Origin: a virus
Direction: 5' to 3' (one strand)
Length of the DNA: 35,248 nt
Virus record (IMG/VR): IMGVR_UViG_3300027522_000014
Location: 1 to 35,248 of that record
Shown: in pieces, positions 9,863 through 29,545 of the stretch
Position numbering within the stretch: position 1 is the first letter of the stretch
Layout: every line of letters begins with the position of its first letter
Translations under genes and position numbers: made by a program
Notes under the pieces: generated by a model
What the model was told of the DNA's origin: nothing
Databases searched by the model: none
The model's input: the letters and a program-made list of their open reading frames with translations, nothing else

Positions 9863-10618
9863 TTAAAAAGATCCTCCATCCATTGTTCCTACAAAGGATG
9901 CTGCTGTGATTGTTCCACTTGCACTTATATTACCTGATGCTATTATGTTAGTTGCTGTGATATCTTGGGTGACATCTAAGGCACCAGTAATTTCAGTTCC
10001 GGCACCTCTAAGATTTAATCCTAAACTTGTATCGCTTGTGTTAACGAAAGCAGATGCTTTAATAATACCACTAGCAGTAACATTACCCGTTAAAGATATA
10101 TTACCCGTTAAAGATATACTACCAGATAGTTTTATTCCTCCAAATAGAGCTTCTAATGTTATTTCTTCCGTTCGAGCATTTAATAATTGCCCATCAAATG
10201 TAAAACCCTCATCTGATACGAATCTTTTTTCTCGGACTCCGTTGTTAAGGAAGTCCCGATATCTTAAAACACCATGACTATAAGGTGCAGCACCATTACC
10301 ATTTGTTATAAACCCATGCCACGTGGGGGTTGTTATATTACTAACACTTATACCTCCGGATGCTGTTATATTCCCATTAACATAAATGTGGTCATTATAG
10401 ACCTGGAAGCTGTCCGAGCCATCTACTTCAAATGAAAGACTATTCCCATCTACAAATATTTTAGTAGTATCATTTGCAGGAAAATTTACAATAGAGGTAG
10501 TTATATCATTAAATGAAACTAGAGACCCCGTACCATCACGAAGTTCACCCCCATCGGTTTGTAGTACCCTTTGGTAAGTATCTTCTATATTTTGGCCTGT
10601 AAAATCAGGTAATGCCAT
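9863..10618 (-). CDS. Short tail fibre protein with ITASGNIS repeats
   Basis: This 251-residue fibre-like protein has an N-terminal stretch (MALPDFTGQNIEDTYQRVLQ, then DGSFQVYNDHIYVNGNITASG further on) that resembles head-attachment ends of phage fibre proteins. Shaft repeats follow: NITASGGIS, SLTGNISLTGNVTASGI and IIASGNISASGTITAASFVG. The internal region FLNNGVREKRFVSDEGFTFDG is a short globular insertion. It is far shorter than the neighbouring fibres and ends in the shaft repeat (FVGTMDGGSF) with no tip domain. It may be a connector to the 900-aa fibre encoded 13 bases downstream, or a remnant of a longer fibre. Confidence 0.8.
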   Translation of the reverse strand: MALPDFTGQNIEDTYQRVLQTDGGELRDGTGSLVSFNDITTSIVNFPANDTTKIFVDGNSLSFEVDGSDSFQVYNDHIYVNGNITASGGISVSNITTPTWHGFITNGNGAAPYSHGVLRYRDFLNNGVREKRFVSDEGFTFDGQLLNARTEEITLEALFGGIKLSGSISLTGNISLTGNVTASGIIKASAFVNTSDTSLGLNLRGAGTEITGALDVTQDITATNIIASGNISASGTITAASFVGTMDGGSF

Positions 10619-10625
10619 AACTTAT

Positions 10626-11192
10626 TTACTTTAATTTAGAAAGTCCACCTATGACCCCCTTTATAATTTTATCTTTTTGTACTTCATTAATTGGGTGTTT
10701 ATCTATGTAAGTTGCTACTACATAATTAAGTTTATTTTTTCTAAAAGAAACATTAGATATAGTAATATCTTCCCTAATTAAAAGGCGCAAAATGTTTAAA
10801 ACGTGATTTTTTTCATTTAAAGTAACTTCATTAATATTTTTAACTTTAACTGAAGGTTTTCCTCCTTTAATAATATTTCCCTGCTGTGATTTCACTTCGA
10901 CTTGTACTTTTTTAGCTGTATTAACCTCAAAGTTGGACTCCCATGGAATAAAGTAAGTATCTTCAGCTATTACTTCTAATTTAATTGTTCCTTTAGAGTT
11001 TTCACCTAGAATGCCTTTTAATCTTTTAACTGGAATTTTGCATTTTCCCCCGGGGGTTATAGTACCTTTAAATAGTAAAGTTAAGTCAGTTGTTTCAATA
11101 ACTAAACGTGCTTTTGAGTTATTTAGGGATGCTCCTTCAAGTTGAATATCACACTCGAATGTTTCTTGTTTATCTGTGTATAATTTGTACAT
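10626..11192 (-). CDS. Conserved virion-associated protein between fibre genes, unknown function
   Basis: This 188-residue protein has no signal peptide or membrane segment. The N-terminal half is beta-rich (MYKLYTDKQETFECDIQLEG, ARLVIETTDLTLLFKGTI, KCKIPVKRLKGIL, LEVIAEDTYFIPWESNFEV). A Lys/Val-rich linker follows (AKKVQVEVKSQ), then a helical C-terminal domain from about residue 125. I recall close relatives in uncultured marine phages, always annotated as hypothetical. It lies one base after the 105-aa gene and eight bases before the 251-aa fibre gene, so it is co-transcribed with fibres. A fibre-attachment or fibre-assembly role is inferred only from that position. Confidence 0.78.
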   Translation of the reverse strand: MYKLYTDKQETFECDIQLEGASLNNSKARLVIETTDLTLLFKGTITPGGKCKIPVKRLKGILGENSKGTIKLEVIAEDTYFIPWESNFEVNTAKKVQVEVKSQQGNIIKGGKPSVKVKNINEVTLNEKNHVLNILRLLIREDITISNVSFRKNKLNYVVATYIDKHPINEVQKDKIIKGVIGGLSKLK

Positions 11193-11193
11193 G

Positions 11194-11511
11194 TTATAAT
11201 ATTGTTACGTTAATACCTAGTACCTCTTCTGTGAGGATCTTAATGTCTTTAACAGTGATTTTAAAGTCTTTAATTTCTTTTTCCTTTTTTATTGTTTTTC
11301 CTTGAACTTTACATATTAACTTAACTAATTTGTCTTTTTTTTTTGGATCTCTATCAAAAAATGAATGAACAAAATCATCATCTTCTACAACTCCAGCAGC
11401 ATACTTAGCTAATGCAATTTCATCCCAAGTATAACGAGAATGACGAGTATTAGTTGGAGCTACATTCCATTTAAAGTTAGCTTTATTCCATGTAGTAGTA
11501 GTTTTTACCAT
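11194..11511 (-). CDS. Small basic protein coupled to fibre gene, unknown function
   Basis: This is a 105-residue, lysine-rich protein. The N-terminus has a Trp-rich pattern (TTTTWNKANFKWNVAPT, then YTWDEIALAKYAAG), the middle is charged (FFDRDPKKKDKLVKLICKVQG), and the C-terminus alternates Lys with Ile/Val. Its ATG overlaps the stop codon of the 936-aa fibre gene (TAATG), which indicates translational coupling. Similar small genes accompany fibres in marine myophages (from memory), with no known function. It could be a dedicated fibre chaperone or a minor collar part. Confidence 0.75.
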   Translation of the reverse strand: MVKTTTTWNKANFKWNVAPTNTRHSRYTWDEIALAKYAAGVVEDDDFVHSFFDRDPKKKDKLVKLICKVQGKTIKKEKEIKDFKITVKDIKILTEEVLGINVTIL

Positions 11512-14321
11512 TATGTTAGTGTATTATACTCCCATAAACATGTTATACTAACTCCTCCTGGAGTATTTTGAGGGTCAAACTTAATTGCTAATATATCATC
11601 AGCACTAAAATTGAAAGCTTTAATAATTGTTACTACGGTATTTGCACCAATAGCCGTTGTGCCCGGAGAGGTTGTTAATACACCATTTATATCTAAGTTA
11701 ATTTCACAATTACCAGCATTATTATCTGTAAGTATTTTGGCTCCCTTGAAAGTACCATCATGTGGAGCTACTATAGCATTACGTCCTTTTTCTACATTAG
11801 CTTTAGGGGATATATTATTTATAGGAATGTATAAGTTGTCTGAATTTGCAAATGTCATATTATGGTGAGTTTGGTGGCGGAGCTTTCCCTTTATTACTCC
11901 CAAGGCTTTTATATTATCACTTGTCAATATATCGCCACTTGAACTTATATTCCCTGAGGCTGTTATATTACCTTTTAAGACTGTTTTTGTTATTGAGTCA
12001 TTACCTAAAACAACACTGTTGGAGCCTTCTCCCGTTGCATCATAACCTATGACTATTTGGTTTGTTTCATCGTCTGCTTTAGCTTTTGTTTCCATTCCTA
12101 TAAAGGTAGAGAATGAAGCTGAATTTAGGGGATTTGATCCTCCTGTAATGTTTTTTCCTGCCTTAAGGCCTAAAGCTACATTATTATTTCCAATTACATG
12201 ATTGTAAAGAGAATCTTGACCTATAGAGGTGTTGTTAGAGGCTTTTGTCTGGTATAATGCTCTTTGACCTACAGCTGTATTAAGTTTACCTAAGGGGCTT
12301 AATTGCATACTTGAAGCACCCACTGCTGTATTGCCCTCTTCAGTGGCCTTTAAAAGTGCTAAATTACCTATAGCTGTGTTTTGTACGTTAGCTCCACCTC
12401 CTCTTCCAATAGTTAATCCATTAATAAGAGCATCATTTTGAACAACTAAATCTGAGGAAGATATAAATCCACTTGCACTTATATTAAGAGCATTAGTAAT
12501 ATTATTTCCCGCCATATTAAGAGCTTCAGTAGCCGTATGATTACCTAAATTATCACCTACTGTTCCTGCTGTTAAAGCTGCTAAAGAAGCTGAGACATTT
12601 GGAAAACCAGGTAAAGATAATTCGCCTGAAGATGATACTGCTGATGCAGTTACAGCACCCCCTATATGATTGAGGAAAACCTCTGCTGGTAAGGAGAAAA
12701 TTTTCGCTGCTGCTAAGTCGGGGGCTGAAGAAAAGATTGGGATATCGGTGCCTCCTCCTTCATCTTCTTCAAGAAGGTTAAGTGCCTTCATAGACACTTG
12801 TCCATTTAAGTTTATATTTGTATCCGTTATCTGCGTAGTCGTGCCTTTTGAGGATATAGTCGCTTCACCGGAAGTGGCTGCTTCCCCGTTTTTACATAGG
12901 AAGAATTCATTTCCACTGTGAACAAATATATTATTTCCATTATTGGTACCAGCTACATCTCCCCCATCACTACCGCTAGTAATTCTAAATGTAGTTACAT
13001 TGTGTATGAGGAATTCATCTCCTACGGGAGGAACTGAAGTTGATTTTACGTCTACCAATTCTACATTGCCAATTTTTAGCATATTGTGGTGATTGGTAGC
13101 CATAGCTCCAGAAATAATAAGACCTGAGCCTGTTATCATATACCCACTAGCATTTGCCGTATCAAATCCTACATTATAGGTTCCAACTTCAATGTGAGAA
13201 TTTGCTGGCCCATTTATATTTAATCCAGCTCCCAATAATGTACCACTTGCACTTATAGCACCTGAGGCTGTTACTGGTCCTAATAATTCTATGTTTTTAT
13301 TAGGTGATCCATTTCTTCCTATTTGAATACTTGATAAAGTTGGGTCAGGAAATACTCTACCTTGAGTATGGTTTGGATCTGTATCAAATGCTACCTTCCC
13401 ATCGACGTTATATTGACTTGCATATATATTTTTACTTGAGCTTATATTGCCTGATGATGTTATGTCTCCCCTAAAATCAACACTGGTTGCAACATATCCA
13501 TTTAGATTAATTCTAGCTAATTCATTAGCTCCTAAGGTAATTACGGGACTATTAAAAGTAGAGTTTCCATCATGAATAGTAATACCTCCTCCAAAAATAT
13601 CTAATGCACCACTTCCTGTAATTGCAACAGAGCCTGTAAATTGATGAGCTGTTCCACCCCCCGCTATGTCATTAGCCGAGGGAGTTGAGCCTGATCCAAA
13701 TACATTACTTCCTGTAAAGTTTGCTGAGAATCCTTGAATAAAGCTAAATCCACTAAATGAAAAAATATTTCCACCTACTGCTAAATCACCATCTGCCTTT
13801 ATGTTGCCTGAAGCAGTTATATGACCATCACCTAATACTGAAAGTGAGTTTCTTATTTCTACCTTTGAATCTACAGCATCTACTTTAAGTAAGTTATTTA
13901 CAGTTTTTCCATGGACTATAAAATCAACATTTTCATTAGTAGTATTAATTTTAAAGGCAGCTGAACCACCCCCAGCCTGAGCATTTTGGTTAAATTCAAA
14001 ACCATCTTCATTAAGCACAATAGCAGGTAGTCCTCCAGGAACTGTTACGGGTCCTTGAATGGTGTCATTTTCTATTTTTATAAGACCTGTACTACCACTT
14101 ACTATTAATGAGCCTATAATAGATGAATTTCCATCTCTTTGTCCCGTTGCTTTAAATGTGTTGTCAGAAACTGCATTAGTTTGAGAAATTTGCATGATTC
14201 CTCCTGTGGTGGAATCAATTGCTAATAAATTTTGGGTAGTAGCTGTGGGAACTACGCTTGCGCTTATTTGCGCTAGGGTGGCATTACTGCCGGATACTAT
14301 GACTTTCTTCCAATTTGGCAT
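11511..14321 (-). CDS. Large tail fibre protein with YadA-like head repeats
   Basis: This 936-residue fibre protein begins MPNWKKVIVSGSNATLAQIS, nearly the same as the 793-aa fibre (MASWKKVLVSGSN), so the two probably share an attachment site. The shaft has ITASGNIS-type units and a segment shared with the 793-aa protein (FTGSNVFGSGSTPSANDIAG and GGGTAHQFTGSV). Residues about 650-780 carry trimeric-adhesin head repeats (AIGNLALL, NTAVGASSM, NTAVGQRALY, NTSIGQDSLY, NNVALGLKAG, FIGMETKA, IVIGYDA, SVVLGNDS). The last 120 residues form a different terminal domain (IVAPHDGTFKGAKIL to ITCLWEYNTLT), likely a tip. An adsorption role is well supported; the receptor is unknown. Confidence 0.85.
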   Translation of the reverse strand: MPNWKKVIVSGSNATLAQISASVVPTATTQNLLAIDSTTGGIMQISQTNAVSDNTFKATGQRDGNSSIIGSLIVSGSTGLIKIENDTIQGPVTVPGGLPAIVLNEDGFEFNQNAQAGGGSAAFKINTTNENVDFIVHGKTVNNLLKVDAVDSKVEIRNSLSVLGDGHITASGNIKADGDLAVGGNIFSFSGFSFIQGFSANFTGSNVFGSGSTPSANDIAGGGTAHQFTGSVAITGSGALDIFGGGITIHDGNSTFNSPVITLGANELARINLNGYVATSVDFRGDITSSGNISSSKNIYASQYNVDGKVAFDTDPNHTQGRVFPDPTLSSIQIGRNGSPNKNIELLGPVTASGAISASGTLLGAGLNINGPANSHIEVGTYNVGFDTANASGYMITGSGLIISGAMATNHHNMLKIGNVELVDVKSTSVPPVGDEFLIHNVTTFRITSGSDGGDVAGTNNGNNIFVHSGNEFFLCKNGEAATSGEATISSKGTTTQITDTNINLNGQVSMKALNLLEEDEGGGTDIPIFSSAPDLAAAKIFSLPAEVFLNHIGGAVTASAVSSSGELSLPGFPNVSASLAALTAGTVGDNLGNHTATEALNMAGNNITNALNISASGFISSSDLVVQNDALINGLTIGRGGGANVQNTAIGNLALLKATEEGNTAVGASSMQLSPLGKLNTAVGQRALYQTKASNNTSIGQDSLYNHVIGNNNVALGLKAGKNITGGSNPLNSASFSTFIGMETKAKADDETNQIVIGYDATGEGSNSVVLGNDSITKTVLKGNITASGNISSSGDILTSDNIKALGVIKGKLRHQTHHNMTFANSDNLYIPINNISPKANVEKGRNAIVAPHDGTFKGAKILTDNNAGNCEINLDINGVLTTSPGTTAIGANTVVTIIKAFNFSADDILAIKFDPQNTPGGVSITCLWEYNTLT

Positions 14322-22652: not shown

Positions 22653-24332
22653 TTACACTAAGTTAAGGTCATGACATTTAACTACACCATAGAAGTCTGG
22701 GCGGACCATCTTCTTAGCATAGCGAGTCATAATTCCTTTACGTGGTGTAAATGAAGTAGGATCATACACAAGTGGAGTCATAATCAAAGGAATATAAGGG
22801 GCAAATACAGCTCCTGTTTCTAGGAATTGATTTCCTTTATATCCCATTAGAATTATATTTTCAGTCATATAAGGGTTCTTATAAACGGTATAACGAGAAT
22901 TAATTGAACCGATTTTTTGAACACCCATAGCATACTTGTTAGAATCACCAGGTGAATCAGCAGCAAATCCAGGAATAGATTCAAGGACTGTACTTACAGT
23001 AGGAGAAACTACCATGAAGTTAGCACCACCACGAAGTGTTTTCTGGTGGATTTTGTTACTAACAGATTGAAGTTTAACACCTAAAGTTTGGAACCAAGAC
23101 ATCTTAGTATAGTACTGACCTGTACCTGTTTCATCTTTAGTAGTACCTACATTATCTAATTCTTTAGCAATTTGGGCACTCCAGTGATTCGTAGTATCAG
23201 CATTTCTAATTAGCATATCAAGAATTTCGAGATCGATTTCCATTGAAATATATTCAGAAAGGATAGACGTTAATTCTGCTTCAGCATCAATACTATGATA
23301 AGCATTTAAGTCTTGAGCAAATTCTGGTGTCCATTGAGCCTTTAACTTACGAGTTTTTGCAGTAACTGTGTCACTTCTTAACTGTACGTTAATTTCGGGG
23401 ATATCAAGGGTTGAATTATCTGCACCTGTTGCTGTTATAGCATTTGTTGAATTGTCTTCAAAATCACCTCTATCGTTGAGATTATCTGGGCCTTTCTGGT
23501 ATTCAACTACTAAAGTTCCATCAACAGCTGCTGCTCCAGCTACATATAATCTTACAAACCCATCAGTAGCCTTATAGCTATTAAATTGGCTATAGTTAGC
23601 AGTAATTGCTGCTGGTCCTGTTACTCTGAATGCTCTTACTCCTTCAGGATCAAAATCCGGAATAGAAGATGTAGAAACTCTTATTTCATCTACATCAGTT
23701 AGTGTTACAGAATCAATAAATACTTGATCATAATTTAATAAAGCTTTACTAGCATTATCATTAGCAAGTGGCGCGAACGAAGATGTTGTTGATGATAAGG
23801 TTGCGCTAGCTTGCGGTACGTTATCAACTCCGAGGCTTGTAGCTTCGTTAATAGAGTAACCAAATCGACCGGCACCATATAATCCTGCTCCTGTTCCTGC
23901 TGCAGGTAGATCAGTTTTCTTTAAATCTGCAGAAGCAGCATAAAGACTATTACCTGAAGTAAATCCAGGTTGATTTGATCCATACTGGAAGTCTAAATAA
24001 AAGATTAGACCTGAAGGTAAATTCATAGGCTGTACAGATACAAGATCTTTAGCTACGATTTCACCAAATACTCTTCTTACAAGAGGAAGAGCAACACCAG
24101 CCCATGCCTCACTATTACCAGTAGTAATAGAAGTACCTGTGCCTGCTGTGTTTGACTCATTTACGAGTTGTTTAGCTTGGTTCTCTAGGAGAACTGCCAT
24201 ATTTGTTTGTTCTGCTTCAGAAGTATAACCTTCTAACAGACCGGATCTTTTCCATTTTGATGTCAGTTTAGCAGCTTCGTTTTGCTGGTTCTGATATGGA
24301 GAAGCACCCTCTAATAATGAATTAATATTCAT
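22653..24332 (-). CDS. gp23: Major capsid protein, gp23-like
   Basis: This 559-residue protein forms the capsid hexamers. The N-terminal propeptide (about residues 1-59) is helical and charged and contains WKRSGLLEG and MAVLLENQAKQLVNE. The mature start is probably after Glu59 (LVNE), a site close to the gp21 protease preference for (L/I)xE. Then follow GTGTSITTGNSEAWA, VRRVFGEIVAKDLVSVQPMN and FYLDFQYGSNQ, hallmarks of gp23. Residues about 190-300 form an inserted beta domain. The core resumes at QLRSDTVTAKTRKLKAQW and DLNAYHSIDAEAEL, and the end (MTPLVYDPTSFTPRKGIMTR, then YAKKMVRPDFYG) is typical. The gene lies 12 bases after the scaffold gene and is followed by a strong terminator. The assignment is firm. 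Confidence 0.96.
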   Translation of the reverse strand: MNINSLLEGASPYQNQQNEAAKLTSKWKRSGLLEGYTSEAEQTNMAVLLENQAKQLVNESNTAGTGTSITTGNSEAWAGVALPLVRRVFGEIVAKDLVSVQPMNLPSGLIFYLDFQYGSNQPGFTSGNSLYAASADLKKTDLPAAGTGAGLYGAGRFGYSINEATSLGVDNVPQASATLSSTTSSFAPLANDNASKALLNYDQVFIDSVTLTDVDEIRVSTSSIPDFDPEGVRAFRVTGPAAITANYSQFNSYKATDGFVRLYVAGAAAVDGTLVVEYQKGPDNLNDRGDFEDNSTNAITATGADNSTLDIPEINVQLRSDTVTAKTRKLKAQWTPEFAQDLNAYHSIDAEAELTSILSEYISMEIDLEILDMLIRNADTTNHWSAQIAKELDNVGTTKDETGTGQYYTKMSWFQTLGVKLQSVSNKIHQKTLRGGANFMVVSPTVSTVLESIPGFAADSPGDSNKYAMGVQKIGSINSRYTVYKNPYMTENIILMGYKGNQFLETGAVFAPYIPLIMTPLVYDPTSFTPRKGIMTRYAKKMVRPDFYGVVKCHDLNLV

Positions 24333-24344
24333 GTTGTTTTAATT

Positions 24345-25529
24345 TTAAAATTTAATATTTGCGAGTTTTTGGAATCGAGACACTGTCTCATCAACTGATT
24401 CCGTAATAACCTTTTTGGGAGCATTACCACTAGCCTTTGAAGCTCTTCCTAATCCTTCCTTAATAGCTCTTTTCTCTACACCTGTAAAGTTAAAAGATTC
24501 TTGTAAGGTAGTAAATACAAGTTTTGCTTCGTTAGCAGTGTTAGCCATGTCTAAGGCATCAACTACTTTAACCTTTTGGGTTTCAGTAAGTGCATTAGAT
24601 CTAAACAGTTTATTGCAGTAAAGAAGTTTGCTGTTAAGTAAATTCATTTCAGAAATAGTTCCTTTAAGAGATCTAACGGTAGCAATAGCTGCGTTGCGTT
24701 CTTCTTTAAGTTTCTTAACTGTTTTTGAATCATATCCAGTACCTCCTTTTCCACCAGGCTTGTTGTCAAATCCAGTTCTACCTTTTCCTCCGACTTTTTC
24801 GTCGTAGCCAGTAGCACCTTCTTCAAGGTCAGCCTCCTCTTCGATTTCAGCAATTAAAGCATCAATGTCAACGTTTTCTTCAACGGCTTCATCATCCTTT
24901 TTAACACCTTCTTGTCGAGGTTTATTTGTACCTAAATCAGACCCAATTTGTGTCATCATTTTTAGTAAACCACCTATTTTTGGGTACTTTGCTGCGAATT
25001 TAGGGTCTTCAAGTTTACCTTCAAGAGCTGTTAAGCCTCCTAATGCTGCTACTAATGCAGGAACTGCTGCAAAAGCTAGTACAGCACTTTCATCTAGACC
25101 TTCGTTAGTTTCTGAGTTTTCACCGAGTGCTTTTTCAAGTTTATCAAAGTCGGCCATTTGACCTCCATCATCTTCCCTCATTCCCTTATTGCCATCATCG
25201 TCCTCTTCATAAGAAGTTTCTTCTAATTCAGCCATAAGTTCATCAAGGTTAATTTCTTCGTCAACTTGATCGTCTTCACCGTAGCTCATTTCATCAACTT
25301 TGTCGTCCTCGTCATAATTCATAGCTTCAGACGTTTTTTCTTTTTCGTCTTCCATATAAGTTTCTTCAAGTTCAACATCTTCTTCAATTTCTTCTGCTAA
25401 TTTAGCAGAGAGCATGTTTTTAATCTTAGAGTCGAATGCTTCCTCCAACGCCATTTTAGCGTTTTGCAGAGCAACTTCTCTAACGGCTTTTGCGTCAGCA
25501 ATTGCCTCTTTTAATAATTCTTTAGCCAT
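24345..25529 (-). CDS. gp22: Prohead core scaffold protein, gp22-like
   Basis: This 394-residue protein should form the inner core on which the capsid assembles and be degraded later. It is very acidic in the N-terminal 150 residues (DEDDKVDE, GEDDQVDEEINLDEL), helical and charged at the start (MAKELLKEAIADAKAVREVA), and helical again from residue 270 (VKKLKEERNAAIATVRSLKG, LLNSKLLYCNKLF). Unusual parts are a hydrophobic Ala/Leu insert at 148-170 (AVLAFAAVPALVAALGG), two similar acidic motifs (NLDELMAELEE, DIDALIAEIEE) that bracket it, and a triple TGYDxK-GGKG repeat at 240-269. It ends RFQKLANIKF. Position between protease and capsid genes matches T4 gene 22. Confidence 0.88.
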   Translation of the reverse strand: MAKELLKEAIADAKAVREVALQNAKMALEEAFDSKIKNMLSAKLAEEIEEDVELEETYMEDEKEKTSEAMNYDEDDKVDEMSYGEDDQVDEEINLDELMAELEETSYEEDDDGNKGMREDDGGQMADFDKLEKALGENSETNEGLDESAVLAFAAVPALVAALGGLTALEGKLEDPKFAAKYPKIGGLLKMMTQIGSDLGTNKPRQEGVKKDDEAVEENVDIDALIAEIEEEADLEEGATGYDEKVGGKGRTGFDNKPGGKGGTGYDSKTVKKLKEERNAAIATVRSLKGTISEMNLLNSKLLYCNKLFRSNALTETQKVKVVDALDMANTANEAKLVFTTLQESFNFTGVEKRAIKEGLGRASKASGNAPKKVITESVDETVSRFQKLANIKF

Positions 25530-25715: not shown

Positions 25716-25916
25716 ATGTTTACATACCCTTACATTACCCTAATAGCATCTTACTTATTAGTAGGAGTAGTTGTCGGATTTTTGCTAGAATTAGCTATCC
25801 GTAAGTTTGACTTTAAAATTGATAATTCAGAAAGGCTTATCATGATTGGCTTATGGCCCTTTATGGCTTTTGTTTTTGCCTACAATTTCTTAAAGGCTTA
25901 CTTTAATAAAGATTAA
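25716..25916 (+). CDS. Small two-helix membrane protein on the opposite strand
   Basis: This is the only convincing plus-strand gene in the window. It encodes 66 residues with two hydrophobic helices: residues 5-26 (PYITLIASYLLVGVVVGFLL) and 43-62 (IMIGLWPFMAFVFAYNFLKA). Between them is a polar loop with ELAIRKFDFKIDNSER, and the end is basic. It has a good A-rich leader (GGGGTAAATAAAAAACT) and a class A-like AATTTATT about 25 bases upstream. Its stop codon overlaps the protease stop by three bases on the opposite strand, so the genes converge tail to tail. Similar small proteins with an ERIxMIxLWP motif are common in phages, function unknown. A holin-like or membrane-modifying role is possible. 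Confidence 0.75.
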   Translation: MFTYPYITLIASYLLVGVVVGFLLELAIRKFDFKIDNSERLIMIGLWPFMAFVFAYNFLKAYFNKD

Positions 25917-26518
25917 CACTTACACACTCCTGTGTTGTCACAAATAATATCTCTAATAATATTATGGACTTTATTATAATTAATTGTTGGGGTAGATACT
26001 CCTTCCATCATGGGAGACATATAAGCACCTGGGGTTGATGGTGTAGAAACCATATCAAAGCAAAGGAGATCAAAATCTTCTTGAACCATTAAAACCCCCT
26101 CTGAGTTTTCTTCTACGGAGCCCATGCCCCTAGATGAAATACCAACTGTAACACCACAACGGAATAATTCTTTAAGGATATTACCTGATGGAGTAGTTAA
26201 TATTTCTATTACACCGTGAACATCACCCCCATTCATAGAAACTTCTACTATATTATGTGAAACATTATTAAGGTTAATTACAGCAGAATCTGGGTGATCT
26301 AATTCACCTAATGCTCTTTTTTCTTTTACAGGACCCTCAATATACTTTTTAATTTCTCTTTCTAAAATATCTTGCTCATAAATACGGCCATTATGGTTTT
26401 CAACACCTGCTCGTTGGATGATACCTTTAACTCTAAGAGGAGAATTATTTTTAATAGATTGCTCAACTAGGAGTTTATCTACTTGAAATGGGATATGTTC
26501 TGTAAGTAATTGTTTCAT
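25913..26518 (-). CDS. gp21: Prohead maturation protease, gp21-like (S77 family)
   Basis: This 201-residue serine protease cleaves scaffold and capsid precursors during head maturation. It has the S77 layout: GIIQRAGVENHNGRIYEQDI near residues 32-51, the catalytic His in GELDHPDSA (His75), the catalytic Ser in VGISSRGMGS (Ser128 or Ser129), and the conserved DFDLLCFDMVSTPSTPGAYM at 148-167. Its length is close to T4 gp21 (212). The start overlaps the stop of the 45-aa gene by ATGA. The gene order (portal, small core proteins, protease, scaffold, capsid) is that of T4. Cleavage is expected after (L/I)xE sequences, as known for T4. The assignment is firm. Confidence 0.94.
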   Translation of the reverse strand: MKQLLTEHIPFQVDKLLVEQSIKNNSPLRVKGIIQRAGVENHNGRIYEQDILEREIKKYIEGPVKEKRALGELDHPDSAVINLNNVSHNIVEVSMNGGDVHGVIEILTTPSGNILKELFRCGVTVGISSRGMGSVEENSEGVLMVQEDFDLLCFDMVSTPSTPGAYMSPMMEGVSTPTINYNKVHNIIRDIICDNTGVCKC

Positions 26519-26652
26519 CGTCCTTGTCCTCTATTTAATTTTTTATAATGTTTAGAGCCTTTGTGGTTGCTATGTTTAGTTTTAGCATGCACTCCTGGGC
26601 GTGATACTTCATCACCGCTTCTATATTGGCTTATATTCATTGATTTTGCCAT
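26515..26652 (-). CDS. Tiny basic protein with RPGVHAKTK motif
   Basis: This is a 45-residue, strongly basic protein: MAKSMNISQYRSGDEVSRPG, then VHAKTKHSNHKGSKHYKKL and a final NRGQGR. I recall the motif RPGVHAKTKTSKLKSSKNYKK from many marine phage genomes, always beside portal and protease genes, with no function assigned. It starts three bases after the 50-aa gene and ends in an ATGA overlap with the protease gene, so it is translated with the head genes. Its charge suggests an internal head or core protein contacting acidic scaffold or DNA. Position corresponds to T4 genes 67/68 (prohead core), but similarity to them is not evident. Confidence 0.78.
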   Translation of the reverse strand: MAKSMNISQYRSGDEVSRPGVHAKTKHSNHKGSKHYKKLNRGQGR

Positions 26653-26655
26653 AAC

Positions 26656-26808
26656 TTACTTTTTCTTTTTCTTTTTAAATGCATATGGGGTAGCATATGC
26701 TTCAGAATTACCTGTAGATATAGATGATCCTGCCCCAGTAGATGACGTTTCGGATAGTGTAGATTTAATAAGTTCCCTAATAAGGGTTCTAAGCTCGTCT
26801 ATCTTCAT
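26656..26808 (-). CDS. Tiny head-cluster protein mimicking the capsid cleavage region
   Basis: This 50-residue protein begins MKIDELRTLIRELIKSTLSE, a helix ending in LSE, a consensus-type (L/I)xE site. Then comes TSSTGAGSSISTGNSEAYA and a basic end (TPYAFKKKKKK). Residues 20-39 align without gaps to residues 59-78 of the major capsid protein (GTGTSITTGNSEAWA region), with 12 of 20 identical and the same 13-residue spacing between the candidate scissile Glu and GNSEA. Codon choice differs, for example TCT against AGT for Ser. It overlaps the 281-aa gene by ATGA and precedes the 45-aa gene by three bases. A prohead core protein processed by gp21 is the favoured guess. Confidence 0.8.
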   Translation of the reverse strand: MKIDELRTLIRELIKSTLSETSSTGAGSSISTGNSEAYATPYAFKKKKKK

Positions 26809-27650
26809 TGTGTAGTATTATTTAATTCATTAACCAATTCATAATAATTTAAAAGATTAACGACATTATCATCGTGGACCGAAGATTTTTTACAAAGAGG
26901 TTTAATTAAACTAACAATTTCATTTAATTTAATTTTAGTAATCTGATCGACATTTTGAGATAACTCAACTAGTTGGCTTTTTACCGTTTTAATTTCTTTA
27001 TTAATAAAAGATTTTAGTTTAGGGTTATTAGAAACATTATAAACATATTCCTTAAGTAAGATTTTTTGATTATCAGCTAAGCCAATATATTTATCATTAA
27101 ACTTTTCCATTAACATTTTATAGGTTAATGCTCTAGTTTCTTTATCAAACTTTTCATATTCTTCCATAACCATTTCCTTTTTAGGTTTATTAGGAAGAAC
27201 TTTATTTGTAATATGTTCTAAAATAGATACTTTAGAGTTTACTATTGATAAAGGATTAGCGTCTTGGCTTTCAAGTAAATGAAATACACTAGCATATATT
27301 TTATAATTAGGAATCTGTGCTTTAAAAAATTCTTCTAAATTATAGTTTTCCTTAATCTCACGAACTAAGTTATATCTTTCTCTTCTAAGGTTTGTTTTAT
27401 TTAACTTTGAATGGGCATTAATTAATGTTTCTATAAGAACATTTGCATTAGCATCTTTATTAAATTTTTTATTTAATAAAGCATGGTATATTTGATATTC
27501 TTTTAAGAGAGTAGATCTTTGTCCAAAAAACTTTCTTAAAATACCTACAGACTTAGGGGGTGTATTTGAAATTGTTTCAGACGTAATTTGTCTAGTTAGT
27601 AATTCAAATAGTATCCCAGTATTTTTGTACTTGGAGTGCTTAGGTTTCAT
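26805..27650 (-). CDS. Helical protein between portal and protease, unknown function
   Basis: This 281-residue, mostly helical and basic protein has no recognised domain. It starts MKPKHSKYKNTGILFELLTR, followed by ISNTPPKSVGILRKFFGQRS, LLKEYQIYHALLNKKF and several charged helices. The C-terminus (KLNEIVSLIKPLCKKS, then VVNLLNYYELVNELNNTT) is helical. It has no membrane segment or signal peptide. It lies downstream of the portal gene, with a class A motif 21 bases before the start, and overlaps the 50-aa gene by ATGA. Position within the head operon suggests a prohead core or assembly protein. I recall similar proteins in uncultured T4-like phages, all uncharacterised. Confidence 0.78.
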   Translation of the reverse strand: MKPKHSKYKNTGILFELLTRQITSETISNTPPKSVGILRKFFGQRSTLLKEYQIYHALLNKKFNKDANANVLIETLINAHSKLNKTNLRRERYNLVREIKENYNLEEFFKAQIPNYKIYASVFHLLESQDANPLSIVNSKVSILEHITNKVLPNKPKKEMVMEEYEKFDKETRALTYKMLMEKFNDKYIGLADNQKILLKEYVYNVSNNPKLKSFINKEIKTVKSQLVELSQNVDQITKIKLNEIVSLIKPLCKKSSVHDDNVVNLLNYYELVNELNNTTQ

Positions 27651-27697: not shown

Positions 27698-29545
27698 TCA
27701 CTCATCTATTATATTTTTTTCATCTAATAGGGAAGGATTATCATCCTCATTTATAAGTTGTTTACCTTTTAAACGAGTTAATGATAATTTTTTTAATAAT
27801 CTAGAATTTTCTGTAACAGAAAATGTAGAAACATCATTAGTTCTTTTAGGGCTATCATCAGCTTTTAAGCCCGCTTTACCTAAAGGATCTCTACCCATAT
27901 TAGCTTGATCAGTTCCATATCTACTTAGTTTAATAGCGGGTCTGCCTGGTCCTTCTTCATCATACCCATCAGGTACATCTTTTATAGTTTTGTCTCTTTT
28001 AGTAGAATATAAACCTGCTAAATCATGGGGTGTACCATATGATTCACCAGATTCAATAGGGTCATTACCTTCGTTTTCTATTTGGTTAACGCGGAAAATA
28101 TGAGCAGCATCATCAAGTGCTTGATTTCTTTCATGATCCATTTCTTGGTCAGATAGATTAAATATGTTTTTGTAAATAAAATCAGATGAAAGTATCTTTT
28201 TATCTGTAATATTATTAGCCAGTTCAACTTTTGACTTATATAGTTCTACTTTTTCCTGTTCAAATATAATTGAAGGACCTGTTAGTTGTAGTTCAAAATC
28301 AACTAAATCTGCATCTGTAAATCCTTGGGTATATAGATGTACTAAGGCTATTTTTTGTAATTCAGATACTATTGTTCTTTGAAGACGTTCAATTGTGCGC
28401 GCAAAGCGAATATCTAGAGCTGCTATTGATGATTTACCTTCAAGATTTTCATCATATCCTAAGAATGCTTTAGGGATTTTAAGAGCCGCTAACATTCTAT
28501 TCTTTAAGTATTCAATATCAGTTATACCATCATAATCAAGTCCTTTTGTAGTATCAATTTTAGTTGATGTATCATTACCTCTAACGGGGATATAAAAATC
28601 CTCCGTCATATTTTGGATATTAAATTTTAAGTTATAATCTCCAGTAGCTTGGTCAATATATGGAGTTTTTTTCATTTTAGCAACCGTCTTTTCCATATAA
28701 GCATCAATTTCATTAGGTGGAATCCCACCTACATTCATATAGAAAACTCTTTTTTCAGGTGCACGCATAATCCTATGAATAAGCATCGCATCCTCCATTA
28801 ATATAAGTTGCTTAAATACTTTACGGGCCGGTTCAAGATATGATCTACCATAAGGGAGATAAGAAGCATCTGAGAGGAGTCTAAAGTGTGCTACCTCATA
28901 GTTTTCAAGCTTCATTTGATCACTCCTACGAGCACTATAAGTGTTACTTTGAGATAATCCATTAGGGTCTAATATAAATTGAACATAACTTGGATTCTCT
29001 GGATCTGTTCCTTCCTCTCTTACTACTTGATAAACTGAAAGTGGTAAAACATTATAAATACCAAACTTTTCAGATATTTGTAGGTGTAGATAAAAATCAC
29101 CATATTTACACATTTGGCGAACCCAAGATGGTAGATTAAATTCAATATTTAATACATCATAAAATAAATTATGGAGTACTCTTTTTACATTTTCATTGGA
29201 TGATTTAATCATTAAAACATCTCCATACTCATTTTTAAGAGTTGCCTCTTCAGAAATAATATCAAGGGCTGGTGCAATTAAGGAATCATAATCCATTGCC
29301 TCATAATCACTATACAACTGAAGTCGCATAGAAGAGTAGTTAAGTGTAGGGTTGTATTGAAGTGAAGAGCCTACCGGTCTATGTAATCTAGTAAATCTGT
29401 CATAAAGAGAGTTTGATTCTAAATTGCCATATTTTTGGATGCGATCTGCATCCATAATTTTGAGTTGATTACCTCCAACGTTTCGTATAACAACATCTGT
29501 TGAAAATAACCTCCGTAATCGTGTAAATAAGCTTGTATCTGCCAT
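27698..29545 (-). CDS. gp20: Portal vertex protein, gp20-like
   Basis: This 615-residue protein forms the dodecameric ring through which DNA enters and leaves the head. Motifs of T4 gp20 are present in order: RFTRLHRPVGSSLQYNPTLN near residue 50, LYSDYEAMDYDSLIAPALDI and ISEEATLKNEYGDVL near 78-112, WVRQMCKYGDFYLHL near 142, LPYGRSYLEPARKVFKQLIL and MEDAMLIHRIMRAPEKRVFY (stem region), FYIPVRGNDTSTKIDT, and MLAALKIPKAFLGYDE. The C-terminal 130 residues are acidic and variable. Length is above T4 gp20 (524). It follows the terminase gene by 29 bases, with a class A motif before it. The assignment is firm. Confidence 0.95.
   Translation of the reverse strand: MADTSLFTRLRRLFSTDVVIRNVGGNQLKIMDADRIQKYGNLESNSLYDRFTRLHRPVGSSLQYNPTLNYSSMRLQLYSDYEAMDYDSLIAPALDIISEEATLKNEYGDVLMIKSSNENVKRVLHNLFYDVLNIEFNLPSWVRQMCKYGDFYLHLQISEKFGIYNVLPLSVYQVVREEGTDPENPSYVQFILDPNGLSQSNTYSARRSDQMKLENYEVAHFRLLSDASYLPYGRSYLEPARKVFKQLILMEDAMLIHRIMRAPEKRVFYMNVGGIPPNEIDAYMEKTVAKMKKTPYIDQATGDYNLKFNIQNMTEDFYIPVRGNDTSTKIDTTKGLDYDGITDIEYLKNRMLAALKIPKAFLGYDENLEGKSSIAALDIRFARTIERLQRTIVSELQKIALVHLYTQGFTDADLVDFELQLTGPSIIFEQEKVELYKSKVELANNITDKKILSSDFIYKNIFNLSDQEMDHERNQALDDAAHIFRVNQIENEGNDPIESGESYGTPHDLAGLYSTKRDKTIKDVPDGYDEEGPGRPAIKLSRYGTDQANMGRDPLGKAGLKADDSPKRTNDVSTFSVTENSRLLKKLSLTRLKGKQLINEDDNPSLLDEKNIIDE

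Follow-up and report, generated by a model that had tools for sequence, protein, structure and literature searches.

A very small gene lying near the portal gene of T4-like aquatic phages appears, from the alignment of its product, to duplicate in detached form the ~17 residues with which the processed major capsid protein begins; roughly half of the relatives have a copy that changes in step with the capsid protein of the same phage. The gene was analysed in a window of 35,248 nucleotides, by which the whole stretch of DNA is meant (positions 1 to 35,248 of IMG/VR virus record IMGVR_UViG_3300027522_000014). The features of the head cluster are collected in Table 1, where the 50-residue product is called the fist-mimic protein. 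The capsid gene of the window was assigned to the gp23 family on the basis of its Gp23 profile match and its head-gene context.

Table 1. Position and basis of the head-cluster features in the window.
Feature	Position	Strand	Basis or remark
Portal protein gp20	27698..29545	(-)	PHROG 213
281-aa all-helical conserved protein	26805..27650	(-)	mimic gene follows it directly in nearly all relatives
Fist-mimic protein gene, 50 aa	26656..26808	(-)	ORF list; sequence MKIDELRTLIRELIKSTLSE followed by TSSTGAGSSISTGNSEAYATPYAFKKKKKK
Fist-mimic residues 1-20	26749..26808	(-)	amphipathic N-terminal segment, ends in putative gp21-type site L-S-E
Fist-mimic residues 21-38, TSSTGAGSSISTGNSEAY	26695..26748	(-)	capsid N-fist copy; alignment, shuffles, own-versus-other tracking
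Fist-mimic residues 39-50	26659..26694	(-)	ATPYAF motif and six lysines; unlike capsid
45-aa basic protein, ends GQGR	26515..26652	(-)	between mimic and protease genes
Prohead protease gp21, Peptidase_S77	25913..26518	(-)	PHROG 207 E 1e-53; Pfam PF03420
Acidic gp22-like scaffold or core protein	24345..25529	(-)	position and composition
Major capsid protein, gp23 family, 559 aa	22653..24332	(-)	PHROG 138 E 1e-75; Pfam Gp23 PF07068 E 8e-79
Capsid residues 60-77, N-fist equivalent SNTAGTGTSITTGNSEAW	24102..24155	(-)	directly after putative cleavage site LVNE/S

The ungapped match described in the earlier note could be reproduced at the coordinates given there: residues 20-39 of the small protein (26692-26751) and residues 59-78 of the capsid protein (24099-24158) are identical at 12 of 20 positions, and the distance from Glu20 to Gly33 in the former equals that from Glu59 to Gly72 in the latter. 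The Smith-Waterman score of the pair was 57, and since this value was reached by none of 20,000 paired shuffles, chance is excluded for the window pair. The next best among the 223 six-frame ORF segments of the window scored 35, and no other six-frame ORF of at least 40 residues approached the capsid match of the mimic. When the window capsid was compared with two related phage records, the homologous small protein was the only second match (E 4e-5 and 1e-4), while in the related phage L134 the phage's own capsid protein found the counterpart small protein with an E value of 2e-8, again as the only second match in 174 kb.

In order to place the copied stretch, the capsid protein was aligned with T4 gp23 by eye, anchored on the conserved VRR. 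In this by-eye alignment Trp77 of the capsid protein corresponds to Ile91 of T4 gp23 and the putative site VNE/S to T4 E65/A66, so the copied stretch, which runs from P1' to the Ile91 equivalent, would be the counterpart of the T4 N-fist (residues 66-91), having the same placement relative to the cleavage site and a similar length. In T4 the N-fist exists only within gp23, whereas here it is also carried by a separate protein. The T4 N-fist touches four subunits, two in its own and two in the neighbouring capsomer, and becomes ordered upon expansion (PMC9958956); in the five portal-facing subunits it is disordered (PMC7136217). The AlphaFold model of the window capsid protein (mean pLDDT 58.6) was too poor for placing the fist. 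In the fist-mimic protein TLSE is the putative cleavage site, at the end of a putative N-terminal propeptide which terminates in L/I-x-E.

The viral contig scan gave 47 loci, of which 16 belong to close and about 30 to more distant syntenic relatives. The same protein of 50-68 residues was present in 16 of the 47 loci, and in nearly all of the remaining ones the motif was found within other, larger proteins (about 90-290 residues); the L020 locus, which was reached via its capsid gene, also has a larger motif-bearing protein. The gene order portal, 281-aa protein, mimic protein, protease, scaffold, capsid was conserved in almost all loci, and the order of the window is shared by Far-T4 phages (PMC4360716) and by the nearest named relatives by capsid, Flavobacterium phage immuto and Microcystis phage Mel-JY01 (54% and 51%, respectively). 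Both named phages carry a family member, KNV73_gp072 of 73 residues in immuto (L062) and WWT39308 in Mel-JY01 (L050), each annotated as hypothetical and each of a short form, unlike the long form of the window. Two Vibrio phages weakly matched the homologue of immuto (E 0.07 and 0.3), and a tblastn search of named phages with the 50-aa protein gave none. The 281-aa protein, whose stop codon is overlapped by the ATG of the mimic gene, adjoins the portal in nearly all relatives; its helical model is confident and matches nothing in the PDB or Pfam. A basic protein of 42-45 residues ending in (R)GQGR, of no known family, is kept between the mimic and protease genes in many relatives (e.g. L071:6728-6862). 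Downstream of the protease, three loci encode head-cluster proteins of 579-802 residues with many repeated ESVNE-like LxE sites (L030:9234-11210, L032:9682-12090, L044:9000-10739), which have the look of polyproteins from which the prohead protease would release a number of internal head proteins.

Members of the mimic family consist of a variable N-terminal part or a short amphipathic helix, the LxE site, an S/T/G-rich arm of 9-21 residues, the YxTPxAF motif and a charged tail, with a GYKxVK-like end in many of them. The helix upstream of the LxE site is conserved in relatives, YxTPxAF is retained in most, and position P3 was L, I, V or M in 77 of the 106 typed relatives according to a rough automatic assignment. 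Among these 106 phages 51 have a long and 55 a short arm, and about ten switches between the two could be placed on the tree. The short form retains the LxE site and the YxTPxAF motif without the fist copy; the mean net charge of the tail per 15 residues was +4.2 in the long form and +1.0 in the short one. The last aromatic residue was Tyr and not Trp in 40 of the 51 long forms, and the subsequent N-arm is not copied. In about 32 more phages the TPxAF motif is lost or altered, and in several of these (L134, L072, L119, L174) a strong fist copy is still present. No further copy of comparable score was found elsewhere in the locus, for instance in short-form phages, with two exceptions: the second tandem capsid gene of L303 and a 105-aa ORF in L072 (score 49). 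One short protein (L112:6169-6540) has tandem TPxAF motifs, TPRAF and TPHAF. In 52 of the 106 typed phages, often in the larger relatives (module proteins of L017-L047), a second LxE lies at most 40 residues after the fist module, so the fist peptide could be excised on both sides.

For the comparison with each phage's own capsid, four capsid-anchored scans were combined into 138 non-redundant phages of this gene order having both a capsid gene and a portal-to-protease interval, and each capsid fist, taken from P1' up to the aromatic residue, was compared by alignment with every ORF of every interval. The score was 39.7 in a phage's own interval versus 27.6 in those of others; the double-centred own excess was 12.0, with a permutation SD of 0.67 and a largest value of 2.56 in 2000 permutations. 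In the same test the 281-aa protein, the portal, gp22 and gp21 showed no own-specific excess across the 138 phages. The excess persisted when labels were permuted within capsid clusters of 60-75% identity (0-2 of 2000 permutations). Inside clusters of 80% identity no tracking was seen, since little has changed there. Shuffling of the arm residues removed the signal (0.9 versus 16.8). Of the phylogenetically independent pairs that differed at four or more positions of the capsid fist, 28 were for and 13 against the own combinations (sign p 0.014, Wilcoxon p 0.0014), and the control proteins showed no own bias over such pairs. Examples of capsid and mimic segments from the same phage are SNTGGGVSNGATFTPGTGEQW and SATGGGVSNGATFTPGTGEQY in L134, NTIASNSSFTSGGQGEN and SSIASNSFFTSGGEGEN in L174, and ANVNTSGGAGFSAGAGETW and ANVTQVGGSGFTAGAGETY in L277.

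The tracking is a property of the long form alone, with a z value of 10.6 overall and of 5.9, 4.9 and 2.2 within clusters of 65%, 70% and 75% identity, respectively; the short form does not track (z 0.8). Universal tracking across the mimic family was therefore rejected, and the covariation of motif and capsid for which the earlier note had proposed a test exists in the long form, also within clades (z 4.9-5.9), and is absent from the short form. Raw arm lengths agreed in 29 of 48 long forms, against 13.4 expected, and the covariation was gone in phylogenetic contrasts (long form, PIC r -0.04). It had been predicted in advance that the capsid fist of the L032-type phage, whose module is short, would be short too; this was borne out, although later data also contained short modules together with long capsid fists.

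Two stretches rich in Ser, Thr and Gly might resemble each other through low-complexity composition, gene conversion or shared ancestry with no functional link, and half of the relatives do lack the copy. However, shuffling abolished the signal, so that a composition effect was rejected, and an old duplication alone would not make the copy more like its own capsid than like others, as is seen inside clades and over independent pairs. The DNA argues in the same direction. The matching 60-nt stretches of the window share 37 of 60 bases, the same codon being used for 5 of the 12 identical residues, and in 48 strong pairs with 588 identical residues the same codon occurred 276 times, against 275.2 expected from the codon usage of each locus. 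Codon agreement is thus at the level of chance, which means that the identity is maintained at the protein level and not through DNA exchange; gene conversion and recent duplication were rejected, as the earlier note had concluded from the window for a recent copy. A mere sequence artefact is consequently unlikely, and we regard it as the least probable of the readings considered.

The reading which we prefer, at roughly even confidence, is that the fist-mimic is a head protein of the prohead-core type, which would be cut at its LxE site and whose mature peptide would bind the capsid N-fist site in trans. Its first ~20 residues would bring it into the prohead, where the gp21-type protease would remove them after L-S-E, simultaneously with the propeptide of the capsid protein and in like manner. 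The released peptide of ~30 residues would comprise a free N-fist copy, the TPYAF motif and the basic tail. The copy may then dock, on a neighbouring subunit or capsomer and during shell maturation, in the site otherwise filled by a capsid subunit's own N-fist, the basic tail facing inward to the DNA or portal side. The copy would follow the capsid of each phage because selection keeps both fitted to one lineage-specific site, and the lineage-specific tracking indeed suggests that mimic and capsid fist bind the same place in the growing shell. The suggestion of the earlier note that the peptide sits in the inter-subunit site of the mature capsid N-terminus is accordingly favoured by the long form and does not extend to the short one; since the latter (55 of 106) has neither copy nor tracking, the function of the family cannot everywhere depend on the copy.

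A serious rival, to which we nevertheless give a rather small probability, is that the uncleaved protein acts at the prohead stage as a placeholder or timer, holding the N-fist or inner capsid site and keeping the shell unexpanded or spaced, and that it leaves or is degraded once the protease is activated. It predicts identical tracking, and the gene does lie in the core and protease cluster and encodes an N-terminus resembling a targeting propeptide; moreover, the N-terminal region of T4 gp23* lies inside in disordered form until the shell expands, and only afterwards shifts outward (PMC9958956). However, in T4 the tracked residues make ordered contact only after cleavage and expansion, and the conserved LxE upstream of the copy would release the copy rather than destroy it.

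It is also conceivable, though still less probable, that the capsid N-terminus and the mimic share a handle for a common core component (the gp22-like scaffold, say, or the 281-aa protein) and track this partner rather than each other's site. In the window the 281-aa gene overlaps the mimic gene, which it also precedes in nearly all relatives, but the match lies after the cleavage site, outside the core-facing propeptide. The 14 residues preceding the site have only generic helix similarity with marginal own-specificity, for which reason propeptide mimicry before the site was also rejected. The similarity of the two stretches, which both lie behind a putative LxE site at equal spacing, could instead reflect an extended recognition of post-cut residues by gp21, the small protein serving as a decoy or competitor. 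The 17-20 tracked residues, however, exceed the needs of a protease subsite, and the specificity of T4 gp21 resides in a very short L/I-x-E motif on the non-prime side, to which few other determinants are added (PMC9026906). The other head proteins tested, gp22, the 281-aa protein and the portal, lack any such downstream sequence. The protease competitor or timer which the earlier note had listed is thus not favoured, and we consider a decoy of this kind very unlikely.

A plausible place of action for the freed peptide of the preferred reading would be where a neighbour's N-fist is absent, above all the portal vertex, which is attractive because the fist partners are absent there and the mimic gene lies beside the portal gene. 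That the detached fist, produced by the same cut, plugs the N-fist sites emptied where the portal replaces a capsomer is a tentative proposal of low probability. Each of ten large related genomes contains one gp23-like gene, as judged by a profile that finds both gp23 and gp24 of T4, and gp24 was not detected in any of the ten while T4 gp24 was found as a control; the pentons are therefore probably made either of the capsid protein or of some other, unrelated one. The L303 phage has two tandem major capsid genes (9968-11602 and 11623-13353; 451 identities in 580 aligned columns) with identical N-fists and a diverged remainder, possibly a capsid/vertex pair in the making.

Comparison with known systems shows partial likenesses. 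As with T4 gp67 and gp68, the mimic is small, has putative L/I-x-E sites and is encoded between portal and protease; the placement proposed in the earlier note holds in this respect, except that the gene is not directly beside the protease gene, from which the 45-aa gene separates it. Homology to gp67 or gp68 was not found: the fist-mimic protein has no family match in PHROGs or Pfam, and T4 gp68 and the gp67-like proteins of cyanophages P-TIM40 and S-CAM22 have neither a copy of their own capsid's N-fist nor sequence similarity to the mimic. The T4 internal proteins IPI-IPIII also begin with a short amphipathic N-terminus (CTS) ending in an LxE-type site, and their mature part is retained in the head, as that of the mimic would be by analogy. 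Unlike them, with which it shows no sequence match, the mimic has a mature part resembling the capsid protein, and we know of no T4 internal protein that mimics the capsid protein. A precedent for capsid-binding mimicry by a short shared motif is given by SaPI1 CpmB and the phage 80alpha scaffold, which share a RIIK helix-and-hook and bind the same capsid site (PMC5644958). There the scaffold of a parasite mimics a scaffold, whereas here the phage itself encodes the protein that mimics its capsid arm.

Head core and internal proteins are already known as a kind, while to our knowledge no copy of a capsid arm that coevolves with the capsid has been reported; in searches of open-licence papers for the N-fist, capsid-arm mimicry and Far-T4 head proteins no description of such a mimic was found. 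The mimic bears on two general questions, namely by what means core and minor head proteins identify the interior of T4-type shells and what sets the portal vertex apart from the other eleven; the localisation of core proteins in T4-type heads has been called mysterious (PMC9958956). A short peptide matched to the capsid would mark a binding site, and its ~18 residues would offer a direct experimental handle. The gene, which most of the sampled relatives contain and which is annotated only as hypothetical in the named phages examined, can now be given a family name and a proposed mechanism. If the peptide does plug the empty sites at the portal vertex, the unique vertex would be sealed or branded by a capsid arm acting in trans, with its basic tail contacting the DNA or the portal.
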